Part shown: piece after piece, positions 36,344 to 44,210 of the stretch
Layout of the letters: the number at the start of each line of letters is the position of its first letter
How positions within the stretch are numbered: position 1 is the first letter of the stretch
Origin: Acidimicrobiales bacterium
GTDB taxonomy: Bacteria > Actinomycetota > Acidimicrobiia > Acidimicrobiales > Iamiaceae
Assembly: GCA_025463365.1 (NCBI GenBank)
Contig: JAOBWM010000017.1
Coordinates: 1-45,928, forward strand
DNA: 45,928 bases
Direction: 5' to 3'
Position numbers and translations under genes: made by a program
The notes under the pieces: generated by a model
Databases searched by the model: none
Seen by the model: only the letters and a program-made list of their open reading frames with translations
Told to the model about the DNA's origin: nothing

Positions 36344-37471
36344 ATGACCGATGACGCCGACTTCTCGGCGAGGGAACTGCGGGCGATGGACGTGGCCGGC
36401 CGGGCCGGGCGGTTGGCCGCCATGCTGGGCGAGGCTGAGGTCGATGCGTTGCTCGTCACGAACCTCACCAACATCCGCTACCTGACGGGGTTCACGGGGT
36501 CGGCCGCGCTGCTCCTCGTCACGCCGGGCGGGCTCACCTTCGTCACCGACGGTCGCTACGGCCAGCAGGCGACCGAGCAGCTGGCCGCGGCCGGTGTCGC
36601 GGCGGCGATCGAGGTCGACAACCTGAAGCAGCGCGAGATCGTCACGGCTGCCGTGGCCGCCGGTGGTGTGGCCCGGCTGGGGCTGGAGGCGCAGGCCGTC
36701 ACCTGGGCGGCCCAGCGCACCTACGACGAGACCTGGTTCCCCGACATCGAGCTGGTGCCCACGACCAGTCTCGTCGAAGGGCTGCGGCTCGTGAAGGACG
36801 ACGGGGAGATCGACCGGATCGGCGCGGCCTGTGCGATCGCCGATGCCGCCCTCGGCGCGGTCCGGCACCGGCTGGCCGGCCAGCCGACCGAGATCGAGTT
36901 CGGGCTGGAGCTCGACAGCGCGATGCGGCACCTCGGCGCTGAGGACGTGAGCTTCGAGACGATCGTCGCCTCCGGCGCGAACGGTGCGCTGCCCCATCAC
37001 CGGCCGGCGCATCGGATCATCGTCGAGGGCGACCTCGTGGTGATCGACTTCGGCGCGCTCGTCGACGGGTACCACTCCGACATGACCCGAACGGTCACGG
37101 TCGGGGAGCCCACCCCCACCCAGGCCCGCATGTACGACGTCGTCATCGAGGCGCAGGCGGCCGGGGTGGCTGCGGTGGCCGCCGGCGTCGAGGCAAAGGA
37201 CGTCGACGAAGCCTGCCGGGCCGTGATCGAGGCCGCCGGATGGGGCGAGGCCTTCCTGCACAGCACGGGTCACGGGGTCGGGCTCGACATCCACGAGGCC
37301 CCCCGGGTGGCGCGGACCTCCACTGCTACGCTGGTCGACCGCTGCGTGGTCACCGTCGAACCGGGCGTCTACCTCCCCGAGCACGGTGGCGTGCGCATCG
37401 AGGACACGGTGGTCGTCACTCCCGACGGTTGCCGCCCCATCACGCTCACCCACAAGTCCGCCGCCGTCTGA
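36344..37471 (+). CDS. M24 family metallopeptidase (Xaa-Pro dipeptidase/aminopeptidase type)
   Basis: Cytosolic dinuclear-metal peptidase that removes residues next to proline, 375 residues. An N-terminal creatinase-like domain (LLVTNLTNIRYLTGFTGS) precedes the pita-bread catalytic domain. Metal ligands are seen in VIDFGALVDGYHSDMTRT (two Asp), STGHGVGLDIHE (His) and TVEPGVYLPEHGGVRIED (two Glu). ATG 36344 is chosen; an in-frame start 30 bp upstream has no support. The gene is directly upstream of efp, the common pepQ-efp order, and a link between proline-peptide turnover and EF-P has often been noted. No clear TANNNT hexamer precedes it. Confidence 0.92.
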   Translation: MTDDADFSARELRAMDVAGRAGRLAAMLGEAEVDALLVTNLTNIRYLTGFTGSAALLLVTPGGLTFVTDGRYGQQATEQLAAAGVAAAIEVDNLKQREIVTAAVAAGGVARLGLEAQAVTWAAQRTYDETWFPDIELVPTTSLVEGLRLVKDDGEIDRIGAACAIADAALGAVRHRLAGQPTEIEFGLELDSAMRHLGAEDVSFETIVASGANGALPHHRPAHRIIVEGDLVVIDFGALVDGYHSDMTRTVTVGEPTPTQARMYDVVIEAQAAGVAAVAAGVEAKDVDEACRAVIEAAGWGEAFLHSTGHGVGLDIHEAPRVARTSTATLVDRCVVTVEPGVYLPEHGGVRIEDTVVVTPDGCRPITLTHKSAAV

Positions 37472-37504
37472 GGCGTCCCGCACCTTGCACCTGAAGGATC
37501 ACCC

Positions 37505-38065
37505 ATGGCCATCACCACCAACGACCTGAAGAACGGCATGAGCCTCAACCTCTCCGAGGGGCTGTACCAGGTGGTGGACTTCCAACACGTCAAGCCGGGC
37601 AAGGGTGGTGCCTTCGTGCGGACCACCCTGCGCAACGTCCGCAACGGCGCCCAGCTCGAGAAGACCTTCCGCGCCGGCGAGAAGGTCGAGCAGGCGATGA
37701 TCGACAAGCGCGAGATGCAATACCTGTACAACGACGGCACCGACTACGTGTTCATGGACTCGCAGTCGTTCGACCAGTTGAACGTGGCACCGGCGTCGCT
37801 CGGGTCAGCGGCCGACTACCTCCGCGAGACCGACTCCGCGGTGCTGCAGATGTACGGCGACGAGATCGTCGGTGTCGACCTTCCTGCCGCGGTGGAGCTC
37901 GTCGTCACCGAGACCGAGCCCGGCGTGCAGGGCGACCGGGTGTCGGGCGCCCGCAAGCCGGCGACCCTGGAGACCGGCAAGGTCCTCCAGGTCCCGCTGT
38001 TCGTGAACGTGGGCGACAAGCTGCGGGTCGACACCCGCACCGGCGACTACATCACGCGGGCCTGA
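37505..38065 (+). CDS. efp: Translation elongation factor P
   Basis: Binds ribosomes stalled at consecutive prolines and restores peptide-bond formation. The 186-residue, three-domain protein has the tip loop KPGKGGAF with K33 at the position that is modified in many bacteria. The neighbouring residues are Gly, not the Arg of EarP-type factors. The C-terminal OB domain ends with KLRVDTRTGDYITRA. A Shine-Dalgarno (GAAGGA, 37493-37498) precedes ATG 37505. nusB starts 2 bp after its stop, and the gene after that encodes 13 consecutive prolines. No modifying enzyme (EpmA, EarP, YmfI) is seen here. Confidence 0.97.
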   Translation: MAITTNDLKNGMSLNLSEGLYQVVDFQHVKPGKGGAFVRTTLRNVRNGAQLEKTFRAGEKVEQAMIDKREMQYLYNDGTDYVFMDSQSFDQLNVAPASLGSAADYLRETDSAVLQMYGDEIVGVDLPAAVELVVTETEPGVQGDRVSGARKPATLETGKVLQVPLFVNVGDKLRVDTRTGDYITRA

Positions 38066-38067
38066 GC

Positions 38068-38658
38068 ATGGCCCCGCTCTCCGACGCGCCGGCCGGCGGC
38101 CCCAACCCGGCCGAGCTCAACCTCAACGACGGCGACGTCGTCGAGTCGATGGAGGTGTTGCCGGCCGATGCCGCCGGCCCCGACGAGGATGCCGTGCTCG
38201 CCGAGGTCGATGCCGACGAGCTCGAGGCCGTCGCGCCCCGCGTGTCGGGGTTCGACGGCGTGGGCACGCGCCGGGAGGCCCGGGAGCGAGCCCTCGCCCT
38301 TTTGTACGAGGCCGAGCAGAAGGGCCTGCCCGCGCTGGCCGAGGTGATCGACGCCCTCCCGCTCCCGCCTGAGCCCTTCGCCGCCGAGCTGGTGGTGGGC
38401 GTGAGCGATCACCTCGGCGAACTGGACGAGATCATCGGCCGGTTCTCGGTCGGCTGGACCGTGATCCGGATGCCGGCCATCGACCGGGCGCTGCTGCGGA
38501 TGGGAACCTACGAGCTGGCCCACACCGACGTTCCTGTCGGAGTGTGCATCTCCGAGGCGGTGGAGCTGGCCAAGCGCTACTCGACCGACGACTCCCACGT
38601 CTTCGTCAACGGGCTCCTGTCCCGGCTGGCAGCGGAGTTGCGAGGCGGCGCCGCGTGA
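38068..38658 (+). CDS. nusB: Transcription antitermination factor NusB with acidic extension
   Basis: All-helical protein that binds boxA RNA with NusE (S10) in rRNA antitermination. The family domain covers about 68-192, starting RREARERALALLYEAEQKG and ending ISEAVELAKRYSTDDSHVFVN by position. Residues 1-66 are an extra, strongly acidic Ala/Asp/Glu-rich tail not present in typical NusB of 130-150 residues. ATG 38068 is 2 bp after the efp stop; no better internal start with a Shine-Dalgarno stands out before the domain. The stop overlaps the next GTG by four bases. Confidence 0.93.
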   Translation: MAPLSDAPAGGPNPAELNLNDGDVVESMEVLPADAAGPDEDAVLAEVDADELEAVAPRVSGFDGVGTRREARERALALLYEAEQKGLPALAEVIDALPLPPEPFAAELVVGVSDHLGELDEIIGRFSVGWTVIRMPAIDRALLRMGTYELAHTDVPVGVCISEAVELAKRYSTDDSHVFVNGLLSRLAAELRGGAA

Positions 38659-39440
38659 GCCGTCGGCGCCGTCGGTCTGACCCGTTCGCAAGCGTCCGTG
38701 AGGCGATGACCTCCGATTCGCCCCTGCCACCGAACATCGATCCCTTCGCCCCGCCGCCTTCGTTCCCGCCGCCACCACCGCCACCGCCACCACCGCCACC
38801 GCCGTCCTCGTCCTCGTCCTCGCCCTCGTCAGGAGGGAGCGAGCCGGGGCCGCGCGAGGCGCTGCCCGCGCCCGCCGAACGGCCGTCGTTCTCGCTGCCG
38901 TGGCCCCCGATCATCCAGGCCGAGGCCGGGTTCTCGCTGCGGCCGTGGGGCTCGTCGTCGACGGATGCCGATGCACTCGCGGCGGCGTGGAACGAGCCCG
39001 AGATCGCCCGGTGGACCAAGGTGCCCGCCACGTCGGATCTCGCAGCGGCCGCGAATTGGATCCGCGGGGAGCAGGTGCGCCGCGAGGCCGGCCAGGCCCT
39101 CGACCTCGTGGTCGCCGAGCTCGGAACACCCGAGCACGTGTTGGGCGAGGTCGGCCTGATCCTGGTCGAGCCGAACCAGCTGTGGGCCGAGCTCGGGTTC
39201 TGGATCGCCCCGACGGTTCGCGGCCAGGGCCTCGCCACCACCGCCGTGCGCGCCTTCAGCCACTGGGTCCTGCAGGACCTCCCGGTTCGGCGGCTGTTCG
39301 CGCAGATCCACCCCGAGAACCGCGCCGCCCTGGCGGTCGTGGCCCGCGCCGGCTATTCGCGCGCCGGGGCGCTCGACCGGGGCACCGAGGTCTGGGTCCT
39401 CGACCCGTCACCGGCCCCGGCTGGTAGCTTCCACGTCTGA
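38655..39440 (+). CDS. GNAT-family acetyltransferase with polyproline N-terminus
   Basis: 261 residues from GTG 38655, which overlaps the nusB stop; ATG 38706 (244 residues) is an alternative. The N-terminus is low-complexity: PPPSF, then 13 prolines in a row (38767-38805), then a serine run. Residues about 95-255 form a GNAT domain of the RimJ/RimL kind (FSLRPW at its start, acetyl-CoA loop VRGQGLATTAV, HPENRAALAVVARAGY). The substrate is unknown. The proline run should need EF-P, which is encoded two genes upstream. The 3' end carries the hexamer proposed as the pyrR promoter. Confidence 0.85.
   Translation: MSRRRRRSDPFASVREAMTSDSPLPPNIDPFAPPPSFPPPPPPPPPPPPPSSSSSSPSSGGSEPGPREALPAPAERPSFSLPWPPIIQAEAGFSLRPWGSSSTDADALAAAWNEPEIARWTKVPATSDLAAAANWIRGEQVRREAGQALDLVVAELGTPEHVLGEVGLILVEPNQLWAELGFWIAPTVRGQGLATTAVRAFSHWVLQDLPVRRLFAQIHPENRAALAVVARAGYSRAGALDRGTEVWVLDPSPAPAGSFHV
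39425..39430 (+). promoter_or_regulatory. Putative -10 element of the pyrRBC operon
   Basis: TAGCTT inside the last codons of the GNAT gene. A start about 7 nt downstream (near 39437) would give a leader of about 49 nt that opens just before the PyrR-type stem-loop. Confidence 0.5.
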
Positions 39441-39471
39441 CCGTGAAGCGGGTCCGGTGAGGCCCGTACGG
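39441..39471 (+). promoter_or_regulatory. PyrR-binding RNA stem-loop (translational repression)
   Basis: Lower stem CCGT (39441-39444) with ACGG (39468-39471). A purine bulge on the 5' side (GAAG, 39445-39448) is followed by upper stem CGGGTC (39449-39454) with GGCCCG (39461-39466). The hexaloop is CGGTGA (39455-39460). Known PyrR loops have a CNGNGA hexaloop, an upper stem with a U-G pair below the closing C-G, and a purine bulge; all are seen here. The pyrR Shine-Dalgarno (AGGAGAG, 39474-39480) starts 2 nt after it, so bound PyrR would block initiation, as described in mycobacteria. Confidence 0.8.
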
Positions 39472-39485
39472 ACAGGAGAGCCGAG

Positions 39486-40052
39486 ATGGCCGAACGAGAA
39501 CGACGTCAAGCGCCCCCGTACGGGGGCGCATTCGCGCCCCGCACCCGCGTCATGGATCGCGACGACGTCCAGCGGGCCGTGTGGCGGATGGCCCACGAGA
39601 TCGTGGAGGCGAACCACGGGATCGACGACGTGCTGCTCATCGGGTTGCAGACCGGCGGCATCCCGGTCGCCGAGGCGCTGGCCGCTGCGCTGACCTCGAT
39701 CGAGGGGCGCGAGGTGGAGGTCGGCAGCCTCGACGTCGCCTTCTACCGCGACGACATCGGGCTGCGGCCGGTGCTCCCCGAGGCGGTCACCAACATTCCC
39801 TGGGCCCTCGACGGTCGCACGGTCGTGCTCTGCGACGACGTGCTCTTCACCGGTCGCACGATCCGCGCCGCCCTCAACGCCCTGTCCGACTACGGCAGAC
39901 CACGTGCCGTGCAGCTCGCGGTGATGATCGATCGCGGTCACCGGGAGCTCCCGATCCGGCCCGACTACGTGGGCAAGAACCTGCCCACGCGCCGCGACGA
40001 GGTGGTCGACGTCCACGACGAAGGCGTCGACCTCGGGGAGATGATCCGTTGA
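39486..40052 (+). CDS. pyrR: Pyrimidine operon regulator / uracil phosphoribosyltransferase PyrR
   Basis: UMP/UTP-sensing RNA-binding protein of the phosphoribosyltransferase fold, often with weak uracil phosphoribosyltransferase activity. It has 188 residues. The PRPP loop VVLCDDVLFTGRTIRAAL (113-130) and the family segments LIGLQTGGIPVAE, DVAFYRDDIGLRP and ELPIRPDYVGKNLPT are present. ATG 39486 follows AGGAGAG by 5 nt. The mRNA leader directly upstream forms the stem-loop PyrR is expected to bind, so it most likely represses itself and pyrB-pyrC. The stop overlaps the pyrB TTG. Confidence 0.97.
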   Translation: MAERERRQAPPYGGAFAPRTRVMDRDDVQRAVWRMAHEIVEANHGIDDVLLIGLQTGGIPVAEALAAALTSIEGREVEVGSLDVAFYRDDIGLRPVLPEAVTNIPWALDGRTVVLCDDVLFTGRTIRAALNALSDYGRPRAVQLAVMIDRGHRELPIRPDYVGKNLPTRRDEVVDVHDEGVDLGEMIR

Positions 40053-41011
40053 TCGGCCGCCACCTGCTGGGCGTGGCCGACCTGGGCGGTCGGGAGGGGA
40101 TCGAGGAGATCCTCCGCCTCACGGACTCGTTCGTGGAGGTCTCCGAGCGAGCCATCCCGAGGGTGCCGGCGCTCCGGGGCAAGACCATCGCGTGGCTCTT
40201 CTACGAGGACTCGACGCGCACGCGGCTCTCGTTCGAGACCGCGGCCAAGCGCCTCACGGCCGACACCATGAACTTCTCGGTGAGCTCATCGTCGGTGAAG
40301 AAGGGCGAGTCCCTCCGCGACACGGCCAAGACGATCGAGGCCATGGGCATCGACGCCATCGTCGTCCGTCACGCATCGGCCGGGGCCCCGCACCGCATCG
40401 CCGGCTGGATCGACGCGTCGGTGATCAACGGCGGCGACGGGTGGCACGAGCACCCCACCCAGGCCCTGCTCGACTGCTACACGATCCGCCAGCACCTGGG
40501 CGACGTCGCCGGCAAGCGCATCGCCATCGTCGGCGACATCAAGCACAGTCGCGTGGCCCGCTCCGACGTGTGGGCGTTCACCGCCCTCGGCGCCGAGGTC
40601 ACCTTGGTCGCGCCGCCGACGCTGCTGCCGCCGAGCCTCGAGGGCTGGCCGGTGAAGGTCAGCCACGACCTCGACGCCGTCCTCCCCACCGTCGACGTGG
40701 TGTACCTCCTGCGCATGCAGCGCGAACGGATGACCGAGGCCCTCCTCCCGTCGTTGCGCGAGTACACCCACACCTACGGCCTCACCCCCCGCCGAGCCGC
40801 CCTGCTCCGCAGCGACGCGCTGGTCATGCACCCCGGTCCCATGAACCGGGGGGTGGAGATCTCCGCAGCGGTGGCCGACCTGCCCCGCTCGGTGATCCTC
40901 GACCAGGTCCGCAACGGTGTCGCCGTGCGCATGGCCGTGCTGTACCTGTTGCTCGGTGCCGGTGCCGATCGCATCATCCTGCCCGAAGCCGAGGAGCTCT
41001 CCCGTGCCTGA
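40049..41011 (+). CDS. pyrB: Aspartate carbamoyltransferase catalytic subunit
   Basis: Joins carbamoyl phosphate and aspartate in the first committed step of pyrimidine synthesis. It has 320 residues. The carbamoyl-phosphate loop STRTR (55-59, within FYEDSTRTRLSFE) and SSSVKKGESL, HEHPTQALLD and VMHPGPMNRGVE are in place. The start is a rare TTG at 40049 that overlaps the pyrR stop (TTGA). No ATG or GTG in frame gives a family-like N-terminus (MIGRHLLGVADL). No pyrI regulatory subunit is seen. An eight-base overlap leads into pyrC. Confidence 0.95.
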   Translation: MIGRHLLGVADLGGREGIEEILRLTDSFVEVSERAIPRVPALRGKTIAWLFYEDSTRTRLSFETAAKRLTADTMNFSVSSSSVKKGESLRDTAKTIEAMGIDAIVVRHASAGAPHRIAGWIDASVINGGDGWHEHPTQALLDCYTIRQHLGDVAGKRIAIVGDIKHSRVARSDVWAFTALGAEVTLVAPPTLLPPSLEGWPVKVSHDLDAVLPTVDVVYLLRMQRERMTEALLPSLREYTHTYGLTPRRAALLRSDALVMHPGPMNRGVEISAAVADLPRSVILDQVRNGVAVRMAVLYLLLGAGADRIILPEAEELSRA

Positions 41012-42287
41012 TCCCACGTCCGTCGTCATCAAGGGAGGACGGGTGGTCGACGCGACCGGGGAGCGGGTGGCCGACGTCGTCGTGGTCGACGGTCGCATCG
41101 CGGCCGTGGGCGAGGACCTGTCGGCGGACCGGATCCTCGACGCCACCGGCTGCATCGTCGGGCCGGGGCTGGTCGACCTCCACAGCCACCTGCGCCAGCC
41201 CGGCAAGGAGGAGGCCGAGACCGTCGAGACCGGCGCCCGCGGGGCGGCGCTGGGTGGCTACACCGCGATCGTGGCCATGCCCAACACCTCCCCGGCCATC
41301 GACAGCGCCGGCGTCGTGCGCGAGGTGCTCGAGCTCGGGCGGACCGCGCCGTGCGACGTGTTCACGTCCGGCGCCATCACCGTCGGTCGCGCGGGCGAGC
41401 AGCTGGCCCCGATGGCCGAGATGGCCGAGCTCGGGGTCCGGCTCTTCACCGACGATGGGGCAGGCGTGCAGGACAACCGGCTCATGCGCCGGGCCATGGA
41501 GTACGCCACCGGCCTCGGCGCCACGCTCGCGCAGCACTGCGAGGACGACGCGCTGTGCGGCGGTGGGCACATGCACGAAGGAGAGTGGTCCGCCCGGCTC
41601 GGCATCCCCGGCCAGCCCGCCGAAGCGGAGGAGCTGATGGTGATGCGCGACATCGCGCTGGCCCGGCTCACGGGCTGTCGCATCCACTTCCAGCACCTCT
41701 CGACGGAACGCTCGGTGGCCATGGTGCGCGACGCGATCGCGGCCGGCCTCCCGGTCACCGCCGAGGCCACGCCGCACCACTTCACCCTGACCCACGCCGA
41801 GTGCGCGGGCTACGACCCCGTGTTCAAGGTGAACCCGCCGCTGCGCACCGCCGCGGACGTGGCCGCGGTGAAGGCCGGCCTGGCGGACGGCGCCATCGGG
41901 GTCATCGCCACCGACCACGCCCCGCACGCCCCCGAGACCAAGGAGCTCCCGTTCGACGAGGCTCCGCCCGGGATGCTCGGACTCGAGACGGCGCTGGCAC
42001 TGGCCCTCACCGAGCTCGACCTCCCGATCCAGCAGGTCCTGGCGGCGCTGTCGTGGCAGCCGGCGGCGGTCGTCGGCATCGGGGGCACCCACGGCGTGTC
42101 GATCGCCGCGGGCCAGCCCGCCAACCTGTGCGTGATCGATCCCGAGGCCACCTGGACCGTCGATGGGGCGGCGATGGCAAGTCGCAGCACCAACACCCCG
42201 TTCCAGGGCCGCGAGCTGCGCGGCAAGGTCCGTCACACGGTGCTCCACGGCGAGCCCGTCGTGATCGACGGCGAGGCCCAGCGCTAG
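41004..42287 (+). CDS. pyrC: Dihydroorotase (class I type)
   Basis: Zinc amidohydrolase that cyclises carbamoyl aspartate to dihydroorotate. It has 427 residues, matching the long class I enzymes. Metal ligands are H60 and H62 in DLHSHLRQPG, further histidines in FQHLSTERS and TAEATPHHF, and an Asp in ATDHAPHAP. The N-terminal beta-sandwich begins VVIKGGRVVDATGE. GTG 41004 overlaps the pyrB stop by eight bases (GTGCCTGA). carA and carB, which often follow, are absent; a membrane-protein gene comes next after a 114-bp gap. Confidence 0.96.
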   Translation: MPDPTSVVIKGGRVVDATGERVADVVVVDGRIAAVGEDLSADRILDATGCIVGPGLVDLHSHLRQPGKEEAETVETGARGAALGGYTAIVAMPNTSPAIDSAGVVREVLELGRTAPCDVFTSGAITVGRAGEQLAPMAEMAELGVRLFTDDGAGVQDNRLMRRAMEYATGLGATLAQHCEDDALCGGGHMHEGEWSARLGIPGQPAEAEELMVMRDIALARLTGCRIHFQHLSTERSVAMVRDAIAAGLPVTAEATPHHFTLTHAECAGYDPVFKVNPPLRTAADVAAVKAGLADGAIGVIATDHAPHAPETKELPFDEAPPGMLGLETALALALTELDLPIQQVLAALSWQPAAVVGIGGTHGVSIAAGQPANLCVIDPEATWTVDGAAMASRSTNTPFQGRELRGKVRHTVLHGEPVVIDGEAQR

Positions 42288-42359
42288 CCGACGTCCGAGG
42301 GGCGAGGGCCGAAGTTCGCGATCACGGATCTCGTCATCGTTTGATGGCATGATCTTGGG

Positions 42360-42380
42360 CGACGTGGGCAGGCCACGTCG
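42360..42380 (+). promoter_or_regulatory. Perfect 8-bp hairpin upstream of the multipass membrane gene
   Basis: CGACGTGG (42360-42367) pairs with CCACGTCG (42373-42380) over GCAGG. It lies 12 nt before the Shine-Dalgarno GGAGG (42392-42396). It may be a leader hairpin, a terminator for pyrC or an operator; nothing decides between these. Confidence 0.4.
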
Positions 42381-42401
42381 GGGGGATGACCGGAGGTTCC
42401 G

Positions 42402-44210
42402 ATGGACCTTGCACCCGTCTTCGTGTTGGCGGCGGCACCGGCCCGGGGCTCGTCCGCGGGCGAGGTGCTGGGCGCGTCAGCGGTCGGCCTGGTGGCCATC
42501 GCCGCCGTGGTCGCGTTGGGCGTGGCCCAGCGGCGCCGCGGGCTCCTCGATCCGCTGTGCCGGGTCGTCGAGGAACGGATGCACCGACCGGCGTGGGCGG
42601 TCATCCCGTCGGCCGTCGCCGGATCGTTCCTGCTCGTGGCCGTGTTCGGGTACTACTGGGACGTCTCGTGGCACATCGACCGCGGCCGCGATCCGGGGGC
42701 GTTCGCCAATCCGGCGCACTGGTTCATCATCGCCGGCCTCGACGGCATCGCCTTCGCCGGCCTGCTCGCCGTCCTGCTCGGTGACGAGCGCAGCCCGCAC
42801 GCCGTCCGCATCCGGCCCGGCTGGTACGCCCCCGTCGGCGGCATCCTCTTGTCGCTGTGCGGCGTGATCGCCCTCGCCGGCTTCCCGCTCGACGACATCT
42901 GGCACCGCATCTTCGGCCAGGACGTCACCGCGTGGGGACCGACCCACGTGCAGATGATCGGCGGGGCGTCGCTCGCGACGCTTGCCATCTGGGTGCTCGA
43001 CCGCGAGGGGGCCCGCGCCGTCGGGGACGACGGGAGCGAGCGCCGCGCCGACGTCGTGGCCTTCGACGTCCTCGCCGGCGGCGCGTTCCTCATCGGGCTC
43101 AGCACCCTGCAGGTGGAGTTCGACTTCGGCGTCCCCCAGTTCCAACAGGTGTTCCACCCGTTCCTGATCGCCCTGGCCGCGGGGATCGGCCTCGTGGCCG
43201 TGCGCATCCGCGGCGGCGCCGGCACGGCGCTCGCGGCGGCGGTCATGTTCCTGGTGCTCCGGGGAGCGCTGACCGCCGTGGTCGGGCCGGCGCTCGGCCG
43301 CAGCACCCAGCACTTCCCGCTGTACGTCGTCGAGGCGCTCGTGGTCGAGCTCGCCGCCCGGGTCGCCGGGCGCGACCGGCAGATCACCGTCGGCGCCCTG
43401 TCCGGCCTCGGGATCGGCACGTTCGGCGTGGCCGCGGAGTGGGCGTGGAGCCGGGCGTGGATGCCGCTGCCGTGGGGTTCGGGCCTGTTCCCGGCCGGTG
43501 CCCTGTTCGGCCTGGCCGGTGGCATCGCCGGCGGGATCATCGGCGCGTTCATCGGCCGGGCCCTACTCCCCGTGGCACGTCCCCGCCAGGCGACGCCGCG
43601 CGGTCTCGCCGTCGGCGCCTGGGCCGTCGTCGTGATCGGCCTGGCGCTTCCCATGCGACCCTCGTTGGAGCACGATCGGGCGACGATCGCCGTGGGTCCC
43701 GTGCACGACGGTCGAGCCACCGTGCAGGTCCGGTTCGATCCGCCGGACGCCGTCGACCATGCGCGCTGGGCGCACGTCCTCGCCTGGCAGGGCGCCAAGC
43801 ACGGCGACGGTGGGCTCGAGCTGATCGGCCTCCGGCGGATCGGCCGCGGCCGGTGGGTCACCGAGCACCCCGTGCCGGTCGCCGGGACGTGGAAGACGCT
43901 GCTGCGCGTGCACACCGGGTCGTCGATGGCGGCCGCTCCGATCTTCCTTCCCGCTGACGCGGGCATCCCGGCCGCGCAGGTGCGGGCTCGGTCGGGTCCC
44001 GTCGCCCTCGTGCGCGAGAAGTCGATCCTCCAGCGCGAGGCCACCGGCGGCAGCCCCGGGATGGAACGGGTCGCCTACGCCGTGCTCGCCGCCATCGGTG
44101 CCATCTGGCTCGCCGCCATGGGGTGGGGCCTCCGTCGGCTCGACCCCGTCGTCGCGCCACGCCCCGTGCCCAGGAGCCTGGCCACACGATCTGACGGTCT
44201 GACGGTCTGA
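42402..44210 (+). CDS. Multipass membrane protein with duplicated Asp/His motif
   Basis: 602 residues with about 13 predicted membrane segments. I do not recognise a named family. Two similar loops stand out: D87-x3-H91-x5-D97-x8-H106 (WDVSWHIDRGRD, then NPAH) and D164-x3-H168-x5-D174-x7-H182 (LDDIWHRIFGQD, then GPTH). A third, weaker segment reads FDFGVPQFQQVFHP (240-253). These could bind metal at the membrane surface. Residues about 425-540 form an extracytoplasmic, probably beta-sandwich domain (ATVQVRFDPPDAVDH, then GTWKTLLRVHTGS) before a last membrane helix (about 558-578). The Shine-Dalgarno GGAGG supports ATG 42402. Confidence 0.85.
   Translation: MDLAPVFVLAAAPARGSSAGEVLGASAVGLVAIAAVVALGVAQRRRGLLDPLCRVVEERMHRPAWAVIPSAVAGSFLLVAVFGYYWDVSWHIDRGRDPGAFANPAHWFIIAGLDGIAFAGLLAVLLGDERSPHAVRIRPGWYAPVGGILLSLCGVIALAGFPLDDIWHRIFGQDVTAWGPTHVQMIGGASLATLAIWVLDREGARAVGDDGSERRADVVAFDVLAGGAFLIGLSTLQVEFDFGVPQFQQVFHPFLIALAAGIGLVAVRIRGGAGTALAAAVMFLVLRGALTAVVGPALGRSTQHFPLYVVEALVVELAARVAGRDRQITVGALSGLGIGTFGVAAEWAWSRAWMPLPWGSGLFPAGALFGLAGGIAGGIIGAFIGRALLPVARPRQATPRGLAVGAWAVVVIGLALPMRPSLEHDRATIAVGPVHDGRATVQVRFDPPDAVDHARWAHVLAWQGAKHGDGGLELIGLRRIGRGRWVTEHPVPVAGTWKTLLRVHTGSSMAAAPIFLPADAGIPAAQVRARSGPVALVREKSILQREATGGSPGMERVAYAVLAAIGAIWLAAMGWGLRRLDPVVAPRPVPRSLATRSDGLTV

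Follow-up and report, generated by a model that had tools for sequence, protein, structure and literature searches.

The window analysed here, a stretch of 45,928 nucleotides, is contig 72 of a 4.3-Mb genome. Its plus strand carries, in order, a pepQ-like gene, efp, nusB, an acetyltransferase-like gene and a pyrR-pyrB-pyrC cluster encoding a PyrR protein whose nearest named relatives come from Actinomycetota and Acidimicrobiales metagenome bins. The pyrR leader and the genes behind it comprise the following features, all on the plus strand:

39422..39430, + strand: extended -10 promoter element TGGTAGCTT (TGnTAnnnT), from a comparative spacing test
39436..39439, + strand: 5' strand (UCUG) of a basal helix, pairing with CAGG 39473-39476 in the fold
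39437, + strand: predicted transcription start at the hairpin foot, 7 nt after the -10 element
39441..39471, + strand: predicted PyrR-binding-loop hairpin, from the fold, covariation and a score of 57 bits with our covariance model R1 (the window being 1 of its 51 training rows)
39441-39444 and 39468-39471, + strand: lower stem of the hairpin, CCGT with ACGG, from the sequence
39445-39448, + strand: 5' bulge of the hairpin, GAAG, from the sequence
39449-39454 and 39461-39466, + strand: upper stem of the hairpin, CGGGTC with GGCCCG, closed by C-G with a U-G pair beneath
39455-39460, + strand: hexaloop CGGTGA
39474-39478, + strand: pyrR Shine-Dalgarno sequence AGGAG, 2 nt 3' of the stem and in part within the basal helix, from the sequence and the fold
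39486..40052, + strand: pyrR (NCBIfam NF003549, 213 bits, cutoff 138)
39510..39529, + strand: relic intragenic terminator stem GCGCCCCC-GTAC-GGGGGCGC in pyrR codons 9-15, followed by ATTCGCGC in place of a U-tract
40049..41011, + strand: pyrB (NF002032, 404 bits, cutoff 263), its TTG start overlapping the pyrR stop (TTGA)
41004..42287, + strand: pyrC (TIGR00857, 383 bits, cutoff 279), its GTG start overlapping the end of pyrB

The start codon of pyrR is the ATG at 39486. Residues 1-19 of the protein form an N-terminal extension, with alignments to 11 solved PyrR sequences beginning at residue 20-21, and residues 1-12 have a pLDDT under 50 in the predicted structure. A motif survey covered 110 PyrR proteins, some of them from the same genomes, and 103 fitted the motif used. 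With residues numbered as in B. subtilis PyrR, R19, H22 and DRGHR were found in all 103 proteins and GKNxPT in 100. T18 and R27 of B. subtilis PyrR are presumably RNA contacts; the window protein has a tryptophan at the first position (residue 33, encoded at 39582-39584), as do 48 of the 103 proteins with this one included, and an alanine at the second; both substitutions speak against the model proposed below. The upstream acetyltransferase-like ORF, two genes after efp (elongation factor P), contains a run of 13 prolines (38766-38804).

A probable PyrR-loop hairpin upstream of pyrR

The initial annotation had placed a PyrR-loop stem-loop directly upstream of pyrR, and its description agrees with the sequence throughout: hexaloop CGGTGA, a U-G pair under a C-G pair, a 5' purine bulge, a CCGT/ACGG stem, and an end (39471) 2 nt before the Shine-Dalgarno sequence (39474). 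The hairpin matches the PyrR binding-loop consensus of a CNGNGA hexaloop, a U-G pair under the closing C-G pair and a purine bulge on the 5' side. Its 31 nt are predicted to fold as drawn at -14.8 kcal/mol (z -1.84; 11 of 200 shuffles were as good), and the folding program adds a G39448-U39467 pair at a position that varies freely among relatives. A strict descriptor, requiring a CNGNGA loop and 6 + 4 perfect pairs in the geometry of the hairpin, had a single plus-strand match and no minus-strand match in the window, and a single match in 4.6 Mb of simulated Markov-1 sequence (one strand); this rarity argues that the hairpin is not a chance occurrence. It forms part of the minimum-energy fold of RNA 39437-39545, and the minimum-energy fold of a longer, read-through RNA (39400-39545) differs.

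The Rfam model of the PyrR element (RF00515, gathering score 54) had no match in the window, and at E up to 10 it returned nothing in 39300-39600 and nothing in the whole 4.3-Mb genome. For this reason we used our own descriptor and our own covariance model, R1, which was built from 51 of the pyrR leaders, that of the window among them, which brings some circularity into R1 scores within the order. R1 matched 110 of 118 genomes of the order at E up to 0.001; seven of the eight genomes lacking a match have no pyrR match either, and the eighth, G055, has a pyrR fragment at a contig edge. The hairpin was present in all 110 order genomes examined that have a complete pyrR leader. Across the phylum, R1 was run with filters that drop weak matches and had a hit in 138 of 296 genomes at E up to 0.01. 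Five weaker matches in the genome of the window (E 0.12 to 5.5) were taken as chance, and second matches in G095, G331, G388 (C227) and G185 (C163) were chance-like on inspection; a second site in G117 precedes an ORF that has no name. A comparative study that used RF00515 has 211 sites in its table (PMC3766115). Among the matches listed in an open-access subset of the literature, no title concerned PyrR leaders of Acidimicrobiales, which is no proof of absence as most subscription papers lie outside it, and by title nothing useful appeared there on Coriobacteria or on intragenic terminators in this connection. The hairpin would bring an order whose members are largely uncultured under PyrR control, and in the genome tested the Rfam model was blind to it.

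The region upstream of pyrR was compared at 190 loci, taken from the 30 genomes of the order, that of the window among them, whose PyrR matched best, the best 80 named contigs, and the 80 other order genomes that remained with a usable upstream region; the first two sets overlap in part, some genomes occurring in both. The hairpin was found at 188 of these loci by the descriptor, whose count is independent of R1. One of the two loci missed, L094, has by eye a five-base loop (CGGGA) on an otherwise normal stem. The other belongs to genome G048 (L142/L242), where the hairpin is slightly altered and displaced by about 130 nt in the upstream direction, and short repeats are found directly 5' of pyrR. 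At L078, tandem repeats of the hairpin's 3' strand and its spacer precede the Shine-Dalgarno sequence (CACGGATATGCCC and the like). Five records (L058 and L061, titled Bifidobacterium breve, and L047, L065 and L091, titled Acidobacteria) carry a pyrR and a leader of the Acidimicrobiales type, and their titles look wrong.

Canonical geometry was found at 171 loci, representing 159 distinct leader sequences. The 10 core pairs are standard in 98.9% of cells of this set, and slid partners, used as a control, are paired in at most 44%. The two bulge adenines occur in 159 and 157 of the 159 leaders; the invariance of CNGNGA is in part a product of the finder, which asked for this loop. A covariance check in the leaders of related genomes had been set beforehand, and compensatory changes proved abundant: 7 of the 10 core pairs have both-sided changes, in 80 cells, against a mean of 14.1 and a maximum of 22 after shuffling. 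When the core was taken together with the basal helix in 51 diverse leaders, 84.3% of cells were paired and 100 were changed on both sides (shuffled mean 40.9, with 0 of 500 shuffles as high). The 5' hairpin is very probably the docking site at which PyrR shuts off its own message.

Promoter spacing and the foot helix

A simple promoter scan found nothing, and the -10 element was therefore sought comparatively. Of 158 distinct leaders, 147 have the sequence TAnnnT at 6-13 nt 5' of the lower stem, most commonly with a spacing of 10 nt (105 occurrences), and control searches at 11 shifted positions gave 0-6 matches per up to 158 leaders. A G stands two bases 5' of TAnnnT in 129 of the 147 leaders and a T precedes that G in 85; a -35 element showed no conservation in the same table of 158 leaders. 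The promoter that the initial annotation had included in its compact leader corresponds to an extended -10 element at a fixed distance, which would place the start of the mRNA at the hairpin foot, on the C of CUGA (39437).

Past an A.A mismatch, the hairpin helix extends through pairing of UCUG (39436-39439) with CAGG (39473-39476), so that part of the Shine-Dalgarno sequence is paired in the predicted structure; U39436 lies within the mRNA only if transcription begins one base further upstream. Among leaders with a G-C pair at (-16,18), the counts for T or C at -17 against A or G at +19 are 69/0 and 5/10 (Fisher p 1e-9, a statistic that ignores kinship). The foot extension has a mean energy of -6.1 kcal/mol with a leader's own flanks versus -4.8 to -5.4 kcal/mol in 20 sets with swapped flanks (about -5.1), and in the 82 leaders without CTGA the values are -4.9 versus -4.3 kcal/mol, the best of 40 sets reaching -4.8. 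This excess, though consistent, is modest, because the flanks are pyrimidine- and purine-rich anyway. In the helix table of the 51 diverse leaders, the four basal pairs, taken in one register, are unpaired in about half.

The UGA at 39438-39440, within the hairpin foot, is also the stop codon of the upstream acetyltransferase-like ORF; ribosomes terminating there on a read-through mRNA could consequently unfold the hairpin. This coding stop was considered as the cause of the conserved CTGA and rejected, as CTGA also occurs at the carA leader described below, whose neighbour ORF is on the other strand.

Terminators within the first codons of pyrR and before carAB

Within the order, the first codons of pyrR mostly encode a peptide close to MAERERRLTPPYGGVFVAR, spelled ACGCCCCC...GGGGGCGTTTTCGTTGCC among the leaders listed. 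Scored as a stem of at least 6 pairs with a count of the T residues within 8 bases, an intrinsic terminator with at least 6 T occupies codons 9-17 in 97 of 175 distinct pyrR starts, against a mean of 1.9 and a maximum of 4 in 10 synonymous recodings. At 5 T the count is 112 of 175 versus 16.6 (maximum 25) in the recodings, and at 4 T it is 125 versus 43.5 (maximum 57). The next four 96-nt windows of 99 long pyrR genes yielded 0, 0, 0 and 0 terminators at 6 T, 0, 0, 2 and 0 at 5 T, and 1, 3, 20 and 0 at 4 T. The terminator stem also covaries, with 44 both-sided cells in the 145 leaders in register against a shuffled mean of 12.1 and maximum of 19, and four leaders (L168, L183, L184 and L185) keep it, by eye, despite unrelated codons. 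This coding stretch was apparently shaped by a transcription terminator. In full-length folds, the PyrR hairpin and the terminator hairpin both exceed a probability of 0.5 in 78 of 112 leaders, with at least one of them below it in 34. In the remaining 50 of the 175 pyrR leaders, no terminator appears even when the threshold is lowered to 4 T; several of these lack the N-terminal extension, and many others retain it with a stem or tail that has decayed.

The pyrR of the window has a stem at 39510-39529 that is a perfect palindrome with 8 bp of GC stem, and a scan of positions 37000-43000 found no terminator with a U-tract, and none between the hairpin and the gene start. The statement in the initial annotation that the operon has no attenuator terminator therefore holds for the pyrR of the window itself, but not for most of its relatives, which have a full terminator in the pyrR codons, nor for its own genome, where the leader of carA holds an intact one.

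This second leader was found as a strong R1 site (56.7 bits) on contig 1 of the same genome, at positions 628-670 (L227, G000:C1:628-760). Its -10 element (TGGTAGGTT), spacing, hairpin and Shine-Dalgarno sequence are like those of the pyrR leader. They are followed by a 27-codon ORF that ends in GTGA, overlapping the start of carA, with carB behind; the two genes were named from sequence motifs and not by family search. The 27-codon ORF holds the intact terminator CGCCCCCGCCTCAGGCCGGGGGCG-TTCTTTTT. The same regulatory module thus precedes another operon of this pathway.

Fourteen carA leaders were compared within the family of the window: its own plus 13 others, which come from 12 further genomes in three genera, G412 contributing two. 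Each of the 14, G418 included, has a 22-31 codon ORF that overlaps the start of carA by NTGA. A terminator with 5 T or more is present in 13 of them but not in G002. A hairpin followed by a predicted ORF that contains a terminator, with no antiterminator, is hence the layout of the carA leader of this genome and of 12 of the 13 related ones, as well as of pyrR in most relatives, but not of the pyrR of the window. In another family, G102 and G298 have a carA with the hairpin and without a U-tract terminator.

Among 13 genomes with both leaders, the U-tract is longer at carA than at pyrR in 12 (means 6.15 versus 3.77), G002 again being the exception. In G061 and G101, members of the family in which carAB lies directly behind pyrC and no second site is present, TTTTCGTT is kept at pyrR, and the single-site genomes G411 and G415 have 5 and 6 T there. 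Three genomes of the genus of the window, G404, G407 and G410, have only 3 T at pyrR, with no second site at E up to 1e-6 (completeness 92, 74 and 98%). Because these three are decayed with no second site found, the idea that the terminator follows carAB is only suggestive.

Proposed occlusion and termination, and the alternatives

From the hairpin, its covariation, the promoter spacing, the terminators and the ORF overlaps, all read directly in the sequences, we infer binding of PyrR with UMP, occlusion of the ribosome and ribosome-dependent read-through. PyrR would bind the loop when UMP or UTP is plentiful and clamp the hairpin; with the Shine-Dalgarno sequence partly in the foot helix, the 30S subunit would be kept off pyrR, and expression of pyrB and pyrC should fall along with it, because their starts overlap the preceding stops. 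The initial annotation had proposed such translational occlusion, and the proposal is strengthened by the order-wide conservation, the covariation, the fixed promoter spacing, the foot helix that pairs the Shine-Dalgarno sequence and the same hairpin before carAB. PyrR-controlled ribosome occlusion at pyrR may thus be regarded as a well-supported prediction.

In relatives with an intact terminator, a block of the first ribosome would expose the terminator and transcription would end about 100 nt from its start. The element that relieves the terminator appears not to be an RNA antiterminator. Pairing of the 3' strand of the hairpin with the 5' arm of the terminator, computed for 111 leaders of the order, has a duplex energy of -6.0 kcal/mol versus -5.9 for swapped pairs, and the mean probability of this pairing is 0.017; relief by an RNA antiterminator is therefore unsupported for the order of the window. 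With no antiterminator found and a terminator that lies in frame in an ORF starting just behind the hairpin, the ribosome is the remaining candidate, and a translating ribosome would keep the terminator open. Translating ribosomes are known to prevent intrinsic terminators from forming (PMC5021804). At the pyrR of the window, where the U-tract is missing, mainly translational repression would be left. At carAB of the same genome, PyrR should act in trans through the module of promoter, hairpin, Shine-Dalgarno sequence, 27-codon ORF, terminator and GTGA overlap. Since most relatives have the terminator in pyrR and the genome itself has an intact one in its carA leader, the design in this clade is probably occlusion combined with translation-dependent termination, not occlusion alone. 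We consider the model as a whole, in which PyrR blocks the first ribosome and, where the terminator is intact, the untranslated RNA terminates, to be likely.

The best-surviving alternative is repression of translation alone, with loop-bound PyrR masking the first site for ribosome entry and the codon-encoded GC stem being idle. Such PyrR-dependent translational repression was reportedly described in Mycobacterium smegmatis by Fields and Switzer in 2007 (J Bacteriol 189:6236). In both cases a PyrR loop lies at the first ribosome-binding site of the operon, and the pyrR leader of the window has no U-tract terminator. The empty scan of 37000-43000 and a hairpin that ends 2 nt before the Shine-Dalgarno sequence and pairs it with its foot fit this reading, as do some leaders from other genomes of the phylum (e.g., L222, L276 and L278) in which pyrR follows the hairpin immediately and the scan detected no terminator. 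However, most relatives have a terminator in the pyrR codons, far above the synonymous expectation, and an intact terminator also occurs in this genome's own carA leader; a like module and leader ORF before carAB is a further difference from M. smegmatis. We regard repression alone as unlikely.

Attenuation of the classical Bacillus type would involve an antiterminator made from the hairpin's 3' strand and the 5' arm of the terminator, with PyrR stabilising the anti-antiterminator; it appears very improbable here. Such attenuation finds a counterpart in 19 leaders from other genomes of the phylum, where the mean duplex energy is -11.05 kcal/mol and most leaders show the classical complementarity of AAGG in the 3' strand to CCUU in the 5' arm; these 19 come from 50 loci, of which 21 have a terminator-like element, one of the 21 (L254) lacking a credible hairpin. 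The duplex within the order is no better than with swapped pairs, its pairing probability is negligible, the terminator lies inside coding sequence, and the pyrR of the window has no U-tract. The B. subtilis pyr attenuators (RF00515), whose mechanism is described in PMC4347634, resemble the present leaders in the CNGNGA hexaloop, the U-G pair under the closing C-G pair, the 5' purine bulge and the position upstream of pyrR, but differ in that here antiterminator pairing is absent, the terminator, if present, is inside the coding sequence, and the Rfam model is blind. A role of the hairpin in promoter-proximal mRNA stability or start-site structure, with no PyrR binding, would suit its place at the predicted 5' end of the mRNA and its fixed promoter spacing, but is hard to credit against the near-invariant bulge adenines, the CNGNGA loop (conserved partly by construction), the association of the hairpin with pyrR and its second copy on carAB.

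Occlusion coupled to translation-dependent termination has partial precedents. In the pyrBI and pyrE attenuators of E. coli, an intrinsic terminator is kept from closing by the ribosome that translates a leader ORF, and UTP-sensitive pausing is the sensor; the leader-ORF ribosome is shared with the present model, but here a protein would gate ribosome loading. For the pyr operon of Thermus strain ZO5, Van de Casteele et al. are said to have proposed in 1997 a PyrR attenuation with no antiterminator, in which a translating ribosome prevents the terminator; here the terminator lies inside pyrR or inside an ORF that overlaps carA, comparative statistics support it, and a second target would be served in trans.

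A more far-reaching reading, to which we give about even chances, is that PyrR regulation in the Acidimicrobiales is a dual lock: the 5' hairpin would gate the ribosome and the codon-encoded terminator would turn the block into termination, the N-terminal extension and the leader peptides would mainly serve to spell the terminator, and the pyrR copy would decay once carAB has its own leader. This reading is weakened by G404, G407 and G410, which have a decayed pyrR tail though only one site was found in each. If true, the dual lock would bridge, in evolution, attenuation by RNA alone and repression that is purely translational. The apparent intermediate itself suggests a link between Bacillus attenuation and mycobacterial translational repression. 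The terminator encodes PPxGG in PyrR and in many of the carA leader peptides, a possible EF-P-sensitive pause site on the terminator arm.
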